From: an uncultured Chloroflexota bacterium
Lineage (GTDB): Bacteria > Chloroflexota > Dehalococcoidia > Lucifugimonadales > UBA826
Length of the DNA stretch: 39,120 nucleotides
Direction of reading: 5' to 3'
Assembly: GCA_913045625.1 (NCBI GenBank)
Contig: CAJWPE010000009.1
Location: 1 to 39,120, forward strand
Below, piece by piece: positions 1,981 to 7,027 of this stretch (position 1 is its first letter; every line of letters starts with the position of its first letter). The position numbers and the translations under genes are program-made. Under the pieces are notes generated by a model. It searched no databases, was not told the DNA's origin, and was given only the letters and a program-made list of their open reading frames with translations.

Positions 1981-3252
1981 ATGCAACTTGCCGAGCTTCA
2001 AGCGAAAACAGACCAAGAATTGTTTGATTTTGCTTTGGAAGAAGAATTAGTAGAAGAAGGTCCGCTTCCTAGGCGGATGGATATTTTAAGAAAACTTTTT
2101 AAGTTCTACACAGATAAAGACGAAGATGTAGACGCTTGTGGGGTTTTATCCATACTCAATGACGGGTATGGTTTTTTGAGACAGAATAGCGATCAGAGAG
2201 GTGCTGGAGATGTCTATGTGTCTCAGTCTCAGATCCGAAGGTTTAGTTTAAGAACTGGAGATTTTGTTTTAGGAAATGTAAGACCACCAAAAGATGGAGA
2301 GAAATATTTTGGATTAGTTAAAGTTGCAGAAGTTAACGAGACTGATCCTGAAAGTTCTAAAAAAAGAAGACGATTTGAAGATTTGACTCCAATATTTCCT
2401 GAAGAAATGATTATTATGGAGACTGGTCAAAAGCAATTAGCTACACGATTGATTGATATGATGTCACCAGTTGGGCGCGGCCAAAGGGGACTGATAGTTG
2501 CTCCCCCGAAAGCAGGTAAGACTACATTGTTGAAACAAATAGCTAATGGTATTTCTGAAAATTCACCTGATATTCACATTATGGTAGCTCTGATTGGTGA
2601 AAGGCCTGAAGAGGTAACTGATATGAAACGATCAATTAAAGGAGAAGTTTTTAGTTCTACTTTTGATGAACCGGTAGAAGATCATTGTCGAGTTGCTGAT
2701 TTAGTGTTGGAGCGATCAAAAAGATTGGTGGAATCTGGAGAACATGTTTGTATTCTATTGGATTCAATTACCAGGATGACTCGAGCATATAACCTTGCTG
2801 TTCCAAGTAGTGGAAGGACTTTGTCTGGAGGTATGGATCCTGTAGCTTTGTATCCACCGAAGAAATTTTTTGGTGCTGCTCGGAATACTGAAGAAGGTGG
2901 TAGCTTAACTGTACTTGCTGCATGTCTTGTAGATACTGGTAGCAGGATGGATGATGTGGTTTATGAAGAATTTAAAGGAACCGGTAATATGGAAGTTCAT
3001 TTGGATAGACGAATGTCTGAAAGACGAATTTTCCCCGCAATAGATATAACAAAGAGCGGAACAAGAAGAGAAGAAATATTACTAGGCGATGATAATTTAA
3101 GTAAAATTTGGACTGTACGTAGAATGTTGACCATGAGAGAAGATACTCAAATGTCTGAAAAAGATTGGTCCGAGGGAGTAGAGACGTTTTATAAGAGCAT
3201 TCTTGCAACAAAAAATAACGCAGAGTTCTTATCGAAGCTAAAAGATTTTTAA
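1981..3252 (+). CDS. rho: Transcription termination factor Rho
   Basis: Hexameric RNA-dependent ATPase that terminates transcription. The 423 residues follow the standard plan: a Rho N-terminal helical domain (about 5-47), a cold-shock-like RNA-binding domain (about 50-125, with the GYGFLR motif) and a RecA-like ATPase. Walker A is APPKAGKTT at 174-182 and the Walker B aspartate is at 261 in ILLDSITR. No large insertion is present, unlike some high-GC Rho proteins. AGAGGT lies seven bases before the ATG. Rho may matter unusually here because several convergent gene pairs in the window have no room for intrinsic terminators. Confidence 0.98.
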   Translation: MQLAELQAKTDQELFDFALEEELVEEGPLPRRMDILRKLFKFYTDKDEDVDACGVLSILNDGYGFLRQNSDQRGAGDVYVSQSQIRRFSLRTGDFVLGNVRPPKDGEKYFGLVKVAEVNETDPESSKKRRRFEDLTPIFPEEMIIMETGQKQLATRLIDMMSPVGRGQRGLIVAPPKAGKTTLLKQIANGISENSPDIHIMVALIGERPEEVTDMKRSIKGEVFSSTFDEPVEDHCRVADLVLERSKRLVESGEHVCILLDSITRMTRAYNLAVPSSGRTLSGGMDPVALYPPKKFFGAARNTEEGGSLTVLAACLVDTGSRMDDVVYEEFKGTGNMEVHLDRRMSERRIFPAIDITKSGTRREEILLGDDNLSKIWTVRRMLTMREDTQMSEKDWSEGVETFYKSILATKNNAEFLSKLKDF

Positions 3253-3272
3253 AATATCTGCAATTTTTTTAA

Positions 3273-3301
3273 TTGACAGTATTATTTAATCCCCATAGAA
3301 T
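3273..3301 (+). promoter_or_regulatory. Upstream promoter P1 of the surface-protein gene
   Basis: Perfect -35 TTGACA (3273-3278), a 17-base spacer and -10 TAGAAT (3296-3301, five of six consensus bases). Transcription would start near 3308. It lies just after rho, in the 313-base gap 3253-3565. That gap otherwise holds a second promoter, a short leader ORF and two hairpins, listed separately. Confidence 0.6.
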
Positions 3302-3399
3302 TTTATTTGTTGATAAATAGACCTTGGGTTAAATCATTTTTTAATGGCTTTAACAAAAAAATAAGTTTTTATAAAAGATAAAAAACAGGGTTATTTCTC

Positions 3400-3428
3400 T
3401 TGACAACAGAGTGGTGGTGATGTACAAA
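3400..3428 (+). promoter_or_regulatory. Proximal promoter P2 of the surface-protein gene
   Basis: Perfect -35 TTGACA (3400-3405), 17-base spacer and -10-like TACAAA (3423-3428, four of six). The predicted start near 3435 would place the leader-ORF ribosome site (GGAGG, 3439-3443) at the very 5' end of the transcript. Together with P1 this gives tandem promoters, consistent with a highly expressed envelope protein. Confidence 0.5.
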
Positions 3429-3447
3429 TTCATAGGTCGGAGGCGTA

Positions 3448-3486
3448 ATGCCTTGGACACGATTACTATTAGCTGTAATGCTGTAG
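3448..3486 (+). CDS. Putative 12-residue leader peptide upstream of the surface protein
   Basis: ATG at 3448 follows a perfect GGAGG (3439-3443) at four bases spacing. The frame reads MPWTRLLLAVML and stops with TAG at 3484-3486. The peptide resembles the start of a signal sequence (Arg, then seven hydrophobic residues). Its last codons overlap a terminator-like hairpin (3465-3487), the arrangement expected if ribosome movement on the leader decides whether transcription continues into the large gene. A chance 12-codon ORF is possible; the strong SD site and position argue for it. No family is recognised. Confidence 0.4.
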   Translation: MPWTRLLLAVML

Positions 3487-3492
3487 TTTTTT
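3465..3492 (+). terminator. Attenuator-like hairpin in the surface-protein leader
   Basis: ACTA (3465-3468) pairs with TAGT (3484-3487), and TAGC (3470-3473) pairs with GCTG (3480-3483) using one G-T pair. One T is bulged and the loop is TGTAAT. A run of six T ends at 3492. The stem is AT-rich and weak, so it would be a conditional rather than a strong terminator. It lies inside and just after the leader ORF. Confidence 0.4.
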
Positions 3493-3503
3493 AGACATAT
3501 AAC

Positions 3504-3521
3504 TTCCTCCTTGGGGAGGAA
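3504..3521 (+). promoter_or_regulatory. Anti-Shine-Dalgarno hairpin in the surface-protein leader
   Basis: TTCCTCC (3504-3510), loop TTGG, GGAGGAA (3515-3521): a perfect seven-pair stem. The 5' arm TCCTCC (3505-3510) can instead pair with GGGGGA (3552-3557), the ribosome site of the surface-protein gene, or with GGAGG of the leader ORF. This mutually exclusive pairing is what a translational switch needs. No known riboswitch consensus was recognised. Confidence 0.45.
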
Positions 3522-3565
3522 ATTTAGGGAACCGCAAAAAATAACCCAAAAGGGGGACAGAGAAA

Positions 3566-6500
3566 GTGAAGAATTTACTTAAGTTTATAGGCATAGGATT
3601 AGTGCTCGTAATGGCTGTATATTCTCAAGGTGTTTCGACAGATACGCCTGTAGAAGCAGCAGCAGCAGCGATTGCTAATAATGACATTGAGTTTCTTGAA
3701 AACGACTCAAGCAATGAGGGCCAAGTAGTTAAGCACTACCCAGCAACTTCAGCTGGTGGTACTAACGCTCAAACTCATGATGTTCGTTTTTTCATAAACG
3801 ACTCTGACCTCAACAAGGTTCAGGACGGACTTACTACCATTAGAGGTAATAACGGTAATGCCAACGTGAACACAATTCAGCATGAGTCAACTATTGAGTT
3901 GGATGCTGATGATAAAGGTACTATTGACGCATCTGATGCTGGATCTGATGATGATCCTTTGGGTACAATGACTGACACTGATGGTTATGACTCAGCAGGA
4001 TCTCCTAAAACAGCTCTTGTAGCAAATACACTTGCTGTTAAGTTAGGTGCTGCGGTTAAGACTTTCCAGATTGACGCTCAGGATGACGTAAACGGAACAT
4101 TCAGTTTGTCTGCAGACGCTATCATTTCAGATACAGTTTTCTTGACTGCAACTTATAAGTTCAACTCTGTACAGACATATAGTGCTGTACCAACTGGAAC
4201 TACTGGTGCAGGTGTTGACATTAATACACGAAGAGCAAAAGTAACTAGTACTTCTGACTCTGGTGGAGAATGGGTAGCGATTGGTGAGAAATCAGGAATT
4301 AGCTTGACTCATGCCAACCTTGCTGCTTCAACTGCTATTGATTCTAAGTACTTCGGTGGTACTGTAAAAATTGGGTCAGATGCTTCTTATGCCGCATCAG
4401 GTGACTCAACTATTTGGGTACAAGACGGAGACACATTGACAGTTACTTACTACGGCGCAGGTACTGATAGCGACGGAAGTGGTGCTATTGAATCTGACGA
4501 AATTGGATCAGTAGTGGCTTCTACTACAGCTACTATTGACGACTCTGCTCCATCTATTGGAAATGTAAGTCCAGAAGATGGAACACTTACTAAAGATACT
4601 TCTCCAGATCTTTCATTCACAATGACTGATACAGGATCTGGATTTGGTAGTTCAGTTACTACTTTCGGTAGTTACGTAGCCGTTTTCATTAACGGTTGTA
4701 TCGTTACAGATGCAGAATTGGGTGTAAGCTCATTTGCTAAGGATTCGATTACAGTAACTTATACAGCTCCTGTTGGAACTGCATATTCTGCCGATGCTAC
4801 CGCTGGTGGACCAGACATCAACTGTACTACGCTTACTACTGGTCAATCCAACACAGAAGCTGAAGACAGAACTGGTGGTGGATTCGAAATTAATACAACA
4901 TCTGCTAATGCTGATGCAACATTGAAGCGTACTACTGATGGTAATGCTTTCCCTATTTCAATTGTTGCTACTGACGCAGCTGGTAACTCCAAGACTCTTG
5001 GTGCCAGAACTGGTGGTGGATCAACTGACTTAGATGTATTAGTTGACTCAGTAGCTCCTGCTGCAACTGGTGTTACTGGTGCTAAAGCATGGAGTAGTGC
5101 TGACAAGAAAGATGTAGACGACAACAGCTCAATCAAGATTGTATTTGATGAGAGTATAGATATTGATTCTGTTACAGCATCTGACTTCTCAATCAGTGGA
5201 ACAGGTGTAACAAGTACAGAGATTGTTTCTATCACTTCAGGTGGTGGTACAGCAGCAGCTCCTGCATTAGCTGGAACCGCTGTATATTTGGACTTAGGTG
5301 CTGATCTAGGGCCTAACGCTAAACCTAAAGTTAAGTTGGTGAGTTCAGTTTCGGACTTGGCAGGTAATGAGTACAAGCCTACTTCTTCACAGATGACTAA
5401 TAATGGTGGAATTACATTAGGTACTGCCGCTGATGGTGTTAAACCAACACTATCTGGTATGGCTATTGGTGATAACTTATTAGACTCTAAAGAAACTACA
5501 TCAATTTCATTGACTTCAAATGAAAACTTAACAAAGACTAATGAAACACTAGCTAATGGTTGTACTTGTGGATCTGTTACAGGATCTATTGATGCAACTG
5601 TTGACTTGAAAGCAGCTAACAATGCTACTGATCCAGGTGGAGTTGGACTTGATACAGAGAAACTATCTGTAACATTGTCAACACCAACAACAGGTAGTGC
5701 TTCTATCAAAGAGATTAATGCACCGTTTAGTGATCCTACAGGAACACCTTCTGCAGGTATTTTCGGAATCACAATGGTCGGTAAAGATGCTGGTAACAAC
5801 AAGGGTATTGGTGGAATTGTTAAAGTAACTGACGAAGATATTTCTAAGTACTTTACTGCTGCTGGTGCACTTGCAGGTGATGGTGCCCTAAACGCTGATG
5901 GTGAAGAACTTTCATTCAAAGTAAAGAATGGACCTTTGGCTGACAGTGATGGAGACGGGGAATTGTCTGATGAACTTATTGGAATGTCAGTTGGTGGTAC
6001 AGCTAAAACAGCCGTTCAAATTGCTGGTGTTCACATTGAGCACATCGACTTAGGTGAAGCAGAAACTATTACATTACAAGTTCCTACTATTGCTACTTTA
6101 GGTGCTATAGCTGCTGATTCAACAGTTAAAGTTACTTACTACTATGTTGCTGATGCAAACGTAGTTGAAGTTGACAAAGACGCTCCTACAGCTACATTTA
6201 GCCCAGCAGATGGTGCAACAACTACTGACACAACACCTTCAATTAGTGTTACTTGGGACGATGATGAGTATGGATGGGACTCTTTCACAACTGTTACTTT
6301 GACTAAAGCAGAAATGAAAGATCCTGATGGAACTGTTCTTGATATCAGTGCTGATATGACTTCTACTGATAATAAGTCTTTCTACTACAAGCCTTTGACA
6401 GCTTTGGCATTAGGTGAGTACAAGATGACATTTAAAGCTAAAGATGCTACTGATAACGAGAGCTCTGACAAGAGTTTCAAGTTCACAGTTAAAGCTAGAA

Positions 6501-7027
6501 GTAAGACTGAAATAGCTATGTCTCCAGGATGGAACTTGGTTTCAATACCAGGTGAACCTGCTGACAATGACATAAATGCAGTTATTACTAACTCACAGAT
6601 AACTACTGTTTTGACATACGATCCATCAACACCAGGTGGATGGTTAACTGCAGTGAGAGATGGTGACCTATTGACTGGTACATTAACTACTATCGATGCT
6701 AGCCACGCTTACTGGGTATTATCAAATAACAGTGACAAGATTAAAGTTGATATTCCTGGATACACAGGTGGAGTTGCAGCAGTTCCTCCAGCCATTAACA
6801 TTGTTGTTGGTTGGAACTTGATACCTGCTGTTTCACTATCAGGTGCAGCTTCATGGGACATTGACCTATACTTGGCTGGTCTTACATGGGTAAAAGCTAA
6901 GTCTTGGAATGCAGCTTCAGAAGCATGGATCGAATTAGATTCAATAACTGATAACAATGCTACTAGTATGACTAGTGGTAAGGGTTACTGGTTGTATGCT
7001 ACTAAAGCAGGTACATTAGTGCCTTAA
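3566..7027 (+). CDS. Large secreted Ig-like surface (S-layer-like) protein
   Basis: A 1153-residue exported protein, probably a major cell-surface component. GTG start at 3566, with AGGGGGA (3551-3557) eight bases before it. A signal peptide is clear (Lys-rich start, then hydrophobic to about residue 20, with likely cleavage near VEAAAAA or slightly earlier). The body is Thr/Ser/Asp/Gly-rich beta structure. Ig-like segments begin near residues 325, 495 and 870 with the recurring phrase 'D-x-x-AP'; the middle one resembles SbsA-type Ig-like domains. The C-terminus has two modules starting GWNLVS (from 988) and GWNLIP (from 1082), each ending in a 'YW' phrase (AYWVLS, GYWLYA). No LPxTG, SLH domain or C-terminal membrane helix is seen, so the attachment mode is unknown. 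Codons ending in C (GAC, TAC, AAC, TTC) are more frequent than in neighbours, as expected for very high expression. Exact function not recognised. Confidence 0.85.
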   Translation: MKNLLKFIGIGLVLVMAVYSQGVSTDTPVEAAAAAIANNDIEFLENDSSNEGQVVKHYPATSAGGTNAQTHDVRFFINDSDLNKVQDGLTTIRGNNGNANVNTIQHESTIELDADDKGTIDASDAGSDDDPLGTMTDTDGYDSAGSPKTALVANTLAVKLGAAVKTFQIDAQDDVNGTFSLSADAIISDTVFLTATYKFNSVQTYSAVPTGTTGAGVDINTRRAKVTSTSDSGGEWVAIGEKSGISLTHANLAASTAIDSKYFGGTVKIGSDASYAASGDSTIWVQDGDTLTVTYYGAGTDSDGSGAIESDEIGSVVASTTATIDDSAPSIGNVSPEDGTLTKDTSPDLSFTMTDTGSGFGSSVTTFGSYVAVFINGCIVTDAELGVSSFAKDSITVTYTAPVGTAYSADATAGGPDINCTTLTTGQSNTEAEDRTGGGFEINTTSANADATLKRTTDGNAFPISIVATDAAGNSKTLGARTGGGSTDLDVLVDSVAPAATGVTGAKAWSSADKKDVDDNSSIKIVFDESIDIDSVTASDFSISGTGVTSTEIVSITSGGGTAAAPALAGTAVYLDLGADLGPNAKPKVKLVSSVSDLAGNEYKPTSSQMTNNGGITLGTAADGVKPTLSGMAIGDNLLDSKETTSISLTSNENLTKTNETLANGCTCGSVTGSIDATVDLKAANNATDPGGVGLDTEKLSVTLSTPTTGSASIKEINAPFSDPTGTPSAGIFGITMVGKDAGNNKGIGGIVKVTDEDISKYFTAAGALAGDGALNADGEELSFKVKNGPLADSDGDGELSDELIGMSVGGTAKTAVQIAGVHIEHIDLGEAETITLQVPTIATLGAIAADSTVKVTYYYVADANVVEVDKDAPTATFSPADGATTTDTTPSISVTWDDDEYGWDSFTTVTLTKAEMKDPDGTVLDISADMTSTDNKSFYYKPLTALALGEYKMTFKAKDATDNESSDKSFKFTVKARSKTEIAMSPGWNLVSIPGEPADNDINAVITNSQITTVLTYDPSTPGGWLTAVRDGDLLTGTLTTIDASHAYWVLSNNSDKIKVDIPGYTGGVAAVPPAINIVVGWNLIPAVSLSGAASWDIDLYLAGLTWVKAKSWNAASEAWIELDSITDNNATSMTSGKGYWLYATKAGTLVP

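Follow-up and report, generated by a model that had tools for sequence, protein, structure and literature searches.

In the window, by which we mean the whole 39,120-nucleotide stretch of DNA that was analyzed, the region from 3400 to 3566 comprises the promoter and ~130-nt 5′ leader that belong to the principal S-layer-like gene of a member of SAR202, an order of the Chloroflexota (Dehalococcoidia). The 12-codon open reading frame (ORF) inside this leader is best read as incidental, either a chance occurrence or a decayed relic, and it lies at a site that in ten other families of SAR202 codes for a peptide with the motif RA(D/G/S)P. At the level of the order, the sequences strongly suggest a regulatory leader peptide, but a different one from that of the window. 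For the window's own genus we propose that the leader acts as RNA and has no functional leader peptide, with a hairpin that would protect the 5′ end and a two-state switch that would occlude the Shine-Dalgarno (SD) sequence of the gene, a proposal on which our own judgment is evenly balanced.

The surface gene and its upstream region

The window belongs to a 1.42-Mb draft genome (G000), which we compared with the congeners G001 and G002. The genes and the promoter that concern us are as follows.

190-1815: CTP synthase gene, first in the local gene order
1981-3252: rho, between the CTP synthase and surface-protein genes
3400-3428, + strand: promoter P2, TTGACA (3400-3405), 17 nt, and TACAAA preceded by TG (3423-3428), read from the sequence, with a predicted start site
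3566-7027, + strand: gene for a 1,153-amino-acid secreted S-layer-like protein, with a GTG start

The only Pfam match of the surface protein was one Big_5 domain, and searches found no match among PDB sequences and none above the NCBIfam cut-off. We call it S-layer-like on the basis of its size, its signal peptide, its conservation, and the wall reported for SAR202 cells, which are described as peptidoglycan-free with S-layer walls (PMC11994032). Between 1981 and 3566, rho is followed by the surface gene, and the region before the gene also reads into rho in G035 (L043) and G051 (L049), so this gene order is old within SAR202.

Promoter P2 was located where the first-pass annotation had placed it, as were the SD and 12-codon ORF downstream, the hairpin at 3504-3521, and its TCCTCC arm. 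The exact promoter pattern occurs at one place in the window genome, P2 itself, and TTGACA-17/18-TG-TA(C/A)AA(A/C) is seen again before homologous genes across the order. A second promoter-like site (TTGACA-17-TAGAAT) lies upstream at 3273-3301 and is present in all three congeneric genomes, and several other families also have tandem promoters before the gene, 100-130 nt apart and with a -10 element that often reads TATAGT. An inverted repeat, GGGTTATTT (3389-3397) and AAATAACCC (3540-3548), would be present only in a transcript from the upstream promoter and has two mismatches in G001.

We collected homologous genes through their C-terminal domain and compared the regions before them, with families f29 and f41 poorly covered; the genomes are mostly drafts, and we predicted the start sites, the RNA folds, and the role of the protein in an S-layer. 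Among the leaders, 58 have a promoter-like site of the P2 type, at a predicted distance from -10 element to start codon of mostly 94-235 nt, and most of these leaders have the SD AAGGGGG(T/A/C) and a GTG start. A long pattern consisting of the promoter, 100-130 nt, and GGGGG was matched exactly in 7 of 250 genomes, and the reversed-pattern control gave none. Given the promoter-leader-SD architecture of the 58 leaders and the absence of the long pattern from the control, the leader is thus an old companion of the surface gene with a fast-changing middle. Windows at about -140 and -100 from the start folded somewhat better than shuffles (mean z of -1.0 and -1.2, respectively), and a single structure shared by the whole order was rejected because no fold window stands out enough.

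The 5′ hairpin and the 12-codon ORF

Two features overlap at the beginning of the predicted transcript.

3439-3486, + strand: SD GGAGG (3439-3443) and the ORF MPWTRLLLAVML, from ATG at 3448 to TAG at 3486, read from the sequence
3436-3458, + strand: 5′-terminal hairpin GUC-G-GAGGC/GUAAU/GCCUU-G-GAC, a predicted fold at or near the predicted 5′ end of the transcript

The hairpin has a predicted energy of -11.9 kcal/mol (z of -4.06), with none of 300 shuffles folding as well, and the leader as a whole also folds more stably than its shuffles (z of -2.25). It buries both the SD and the ATG of the 12-codon ORF, ~15 nt or less from the predicted 5′ end, a point that the first-pass annotation had overlooked. 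The pairing is preserved in G002 via G-C/G-U exchanges, G001 has a hairpin of different build, and G004 and G007, from the window's family, likewise have 5′-end hairpins.

5′ hairpins and ribosome road-blocks are established mRNA stabilizers (review PMC3997798), and the predicted hairpin is strong, although it is placed at the 5′ terminus by a start site that is itself predicted. In having a hairpin at the predicted 5′ end, the window's genus resembles transcripts with ompA-type 5′-terminal hairpins, and the relatives, with an early SD and ORF near the 5′ end, resemble the ermA/ermC leader and the STAB-SD road-blocks. Unlike in these stabilizers, the SAR202 hairpin is not uniform across the order, where the enrichment of 5′-end hairpins is weak (mean z of -0.47, standard error of 0.23).

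The first-pass annotation had proposed that MPWTRLLLAVML is a leader peptide which, through being translated or through stalling, controls the hairpins downstream. This is now very unlikely, even though the ORF has a good SD and an ATG, G002 retains its reading frame, and a real leader peptide sits at a comparable 5′ position in other families. The ORF is absent from G001, and G002 reads TTG-TCT-CGG-ACG where G000 reads ATG-CCT-TGG-ACA, that is, one synonymous change against three others that affect the start codon, now TTG, and two residues (pS of 0.10 and pN of 0.12); these same four changes leave the 5′ hairpin paired. Identity between G000 and G001 reaches the minimum of the leader over the ORF (0.47-0.50 for 3444-3493), and the SD and ATG are held in the stable hairpin. 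Conservation in close relatives, as expected of an arrest peptide, was not seen for MPWTRLLLAVML in G001 and G002, and the peptide lacks a RAPP-like core (RAPP, RAGP, RADP, RASP, RGPP, and the like). The further suggestion that it begins like a signal sequence and reports on secretion concerns 12 unconserved residues. In secretion monitors the arrest site comes after a localization signal and >30 residues of spacer (PMC10987492), and the window ORF has 12 residues in all.

Overlapping the end of the ORF is a second candidate element.

3465-3492: stem before six T, bulged and A+T-rich, -6.4 to -7.0 kcal/mol

The stem with its six T exists as described, and it could be imagined to work as a transcription attenuator that terminates under some condition. 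We find this scarcely credible given that the stem is weak and not terminator-like, a terminator scan of 3200-3700 found no terminator-like site and left this stem unflagged, and G001 lacks the T-run. Over the whole region no Rfam family reached its gathering score and a permissive search gave a best E-value of 1.1, so the earlier statement that no known riboswitch class is present holds.

Predicted alternative pairing of the SD and the conserved 3′ leader

The downstream half of the leader contains three features that bear on initiation at the surface gene.

3504-3521, + strand: hairpin of TTCCTCC (3504-3510), TTGG, and GGAGGAA (3515-3521), 7 bp, -10.3 kcal/mol, whose 5′ arm is an anti-SD
3526-3565, + strand: near-invariant 3′ leader AGGGAACCG(C/A)AAAAAATAACCCAAAAGGGGGACAGAGAAA, which includes the SD GGGGGA, defined by congener identity
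3552-3557, + strand: SD GGGGGA of the surface gene, with the GTG at 3566

The hairpin and the capacity of its arm to pair with the SD of the gene were confirmed, in three of three species of the genus. Comparison with relatives, which had been proposed as a check, went against the ORF and the T6 stem but not against this hairpin and its alternative pairing. The hairpin reads TTCCTCC/GGAGGAA in G000, and the corresponding sequences are TTCCCCC/GGGGGAA (G002) and TTCCCC/GGGGAA (G001), both of which have C-G in place of U-A as the middle pair, a compensatory change. Since this form of hairpin and anti-SD occurs in three closely related genomes only, with one compensatory pair, the covariation amounts to one or two events. 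Pairing between the TCCTCC arm and the SD was equaled by 1 of 100 leader shuffles in G000 (z of -2.7), and the complementarity is retained in G002 (z of -3.6) and G001 (z of -1.45).

With the hairpin forced, the calculated energy was -39.9 kcal/mol in G000, -40.1 kcal/mol in G002, and -41.4 kcal/mol in G001; with the arm-SD pairing forced, it was -40.3, -40.6, and -37.2 kcal/mol, respectively. From these energies a switch appears feasible in two species, whose folds are no more than 0.5 kcal/mol apart, with a bias toward the SD-free fold in the third, and because G001 prefers the SD-free fold by about 4 kcal/mol, the case for bistability does not extend to all three. Mutually exclusive pairings, one of which hides the SD, are thus found in G000 and G002 and are possible but disfavored in G001, within a set of three species. 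These predicted folds support the view that the leader is structured and that one of two competing pairings can hide the SD of the gene. The arrangement is like that of SD-sequestering switches, riboswitch-like or protein-bound, in that the arm pairs with either its own hairpin partner or the SD; it differs from them in having neither an Rfam match nor a known ligand and in being restricted to one genus. The anti-SD is absent in the other genera of the window's family, and an order-wide anti-SD was rejected (mean genus z of 0.04 against shuffles).

The 3′ leader is far better conserved than the middle, with identities of 0.90-1.0 (30-nt blocks; G000, G001, and G002) against about 0.5 mid-leader, and from 3553 to 3612, which takes in the SD and the beginning of the coding region, the identity between G000 and G001 is 0.97-1.0. 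From 3553 to 3630, covering the SD and the first ~20 codons, these two genomes differ by one change in about 75 nt, third positions included; in later codons of the surface gene, about a third of third positions differ. Within the 3′ leader, CCC at 3545-3547 can pair with the SD GGGGGA, and this CCC/GGG pairing is present in the predicted folds of the window's family (f1).

A plainer account of the window leader is that it regulates nothing, and that its length, its 5′ hairpin, and its strong SD only give mRNA stability and high constitutive expression, as with the messages of other abundant surface proteins. We regard this as a real contender, if one we would rather bet against. High output needs no more than a strong promoter, a 5′ hairpin, a strong SD, and a long leader, C/U-rich hairpin arms readily pair with a G5 SD, and the anti-SD is unconserved outside the genus. 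However, the genus has retained complementarity to the SD despite sequence changes, and conservation of the 3′ leader and of the first codons goes beyond what an SD needs.

In the RNA-level mechanism that we prefer for the window's genus, the hairpin at the 5′ end would protect an abundant messenger. In one state the UCCUCC arm would be held in its own hairpin, and in the other it would pair with the SD, hide it, and limit initiation; both folds are calculated, and the cell may use them in this manner. The simplest guess for what shifts the balance is the surface protein, or else the ribosome or a protein, binding to the invariant 3′ leader.

An RA(D/G/S)P leader peptide in related families

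In many leaders of the order, an ORF with its own SD lies some 130-150 nt upstream of the surface gene. This uORF encodes RA(D/G/S)P in 15 of 73 leaders, from 10 of 47 genera and ten families, against a chance expectation of 0.068 and a maximum of 1 in 500 dinucleotide shuffles. The peptides are listed here by genome.

G027: MDLSSIFLVPPRADPSRASP
G176: MDLSAIFLVPPRADPSRASP
G052: MDLSSFVRILARADPSRVPRR
G091: MDSSSYFLIPARADPSLLPRSGP
G092: MYSSSGFSVPPRADPSLVPRSGP
G090: MYSSSCYVPSRADPSLVPRSGP
G192: MDLSRHLSRADPARVPGR
G039: MHSSPYLSRADPSRTHR
G086: MDSIVLHLPRADPSLVPRS*
G247-249: MASPASAPRAGPVPAGSR
G087: MFLASYHSRAGPKR
G022: MKSAIRSVVSPSRAGPRRRK
G025: MACPHAAPRASPSD

The uATG lies 21-35 nt downstream of the predicted transcription start, and the third residue of the motif is at codon 11-15, 91-116 nt before the start of the surface gene and exactly 104 nt in seven cases. 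Substitutions point to constraint on the peptide at the protein level. Over codons 1-21, G027 and G176 have a pS of 0.65 and a pN of 0.04, and beyond them a pS of 0.05 and a pN of 0.26. Similarly, G248 and G249 differ by three synonymous and no amino acid changes over codons 1-20 and by one and nine, respectively, beyond.

RAGP is the core of SecM, uORFs clustering with Escherichia coli SecM include some with RADP or RASP (PMC10987492), and RAPP-like peptides act at the peptidyl-transferase center (PMC10951233, PMC12992588). Like SecM and the RAPP-like peptides (ApdA, ApdP, ApcA, YwcI, and CruR), the ten SAR202 families have their RA(G/D/S)P uORF close upstream of the gene, and the ribosome is likely to arrest at this motif. 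The relatives differ from these systems in that the downstream gene encodes a structural protein of the cell surface, not sec or yidC, and in that the peptides have no localization signal and are conserved beyond the proline; RAxP is absent from the ORF of the window itself. We found no Chloroflexi or S-layer case in the literature on RAPP-like arrest peptides that we examined, although such cases may exist elsewhere.

The putative arrest residue, at codon 11-15, is preceded by 10-14 residues and no signal sequence. With neither an export signal nor a spacer of >30 residues before the motif, a secretion sensor is unlikely. When the accessibility of the SD was predicted with and without a stalled ribosome (considering the stretch after RAxP and a stall-controlled SD hairpin), no consistent direction emerged.

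The peptide may instead be translated with no arrest, for example, to couple ribosomes onto the surface gene or to guard the 5′ end. This deserves serious attention, though we doubt it. Residues remain conserved 6-8 positions past RAxP (RADPSRxP, RADPSLVPRSGP), which would be superfluous if ribosomes stopped there permanently, and the uORF ends between -6 and +13 nt from the surface-gene start in 11 of 16 cases. Against it, R, A, and P around a variable G, D, or S is the very variation recorded among SecM homologues (PMC10987492).

A genome-wide pattern of SD, ATG, and RA(D/G)P gave 19 matches in 247 genomes, near the reversed-pattern control, so this uORF is not a general genomic feature. Four short in-frame RAxP ORFs were present among the loci inspected, three of them the leader of the surface gene, and a short-peptide search of the class returned only noise. 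The leader of G180 (L062:1500-1703) contains MQAYVRIVARAGNSPWIGD, with the variant RAGN, and also an anti-SD, CTCCCCTTGG, whose match to the SD beats all 100 shuffles (z of -3.6). Near-minimal SD-driven ORFs occupy the uORF position in G075 (L117; GTG-AGG-CTT-TAA) and G050 (L044; ATG-TGA).

No RAxP ORF was found in family f1 (G000, G001, G002, G004, G007, G010, and G014), which groups in the C-terminal-domain tree with f34, also RAxP-free. On this tree RAxP requires at least seven changes, compared to a shuffled mean of 12.4, and is thus scattered yet clustered. The f1 line may have lost RAxP, or the motif may have been gained repeatedly elsewhere, as the tree points to no single clean gain and to no single clean loss. 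Given the RA(D/G/S)P uORFs of the relatives and the unsupported MPWTRLLLAVML, a leader-peptide switch seems to fit the gene family and not the peptide of the window species.

Implications for SAR202

For the order as a whole, we tentatively propose, with confidence just short of even, that the S-layer-like gene is controlled by a SecM-type RA(D/G/S)P peptide acting 11-15 codons from its start with no export signal, and that the window lineage, having lost this peptide, depends only on RNA structure. The regulatory or protective part would fall, in the relatives, to a ribosome that slows at codon 11-15. The S-layer genes slpA of Thermus and slpA of Lactobacillus have long leaders and strong promoters, and post-transcriptional control has been proposed for them. 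The SAR202 gene likewise combines a long leader and a strong promoter on an S-layer-like gene.

For the window the outcome is a correction, since the RNA parts of the leader merit attention and the small ORF does not. The RAxP leaders of the relatives provide concrete sequences for testing. SAR202 bacteria are among the commonest cells of the dark ocean, and if our proposal is true, SecM-type arrest would reach beyond monitors of the export machinery, to a structural gene of the cell surface and to very short nascent chains.
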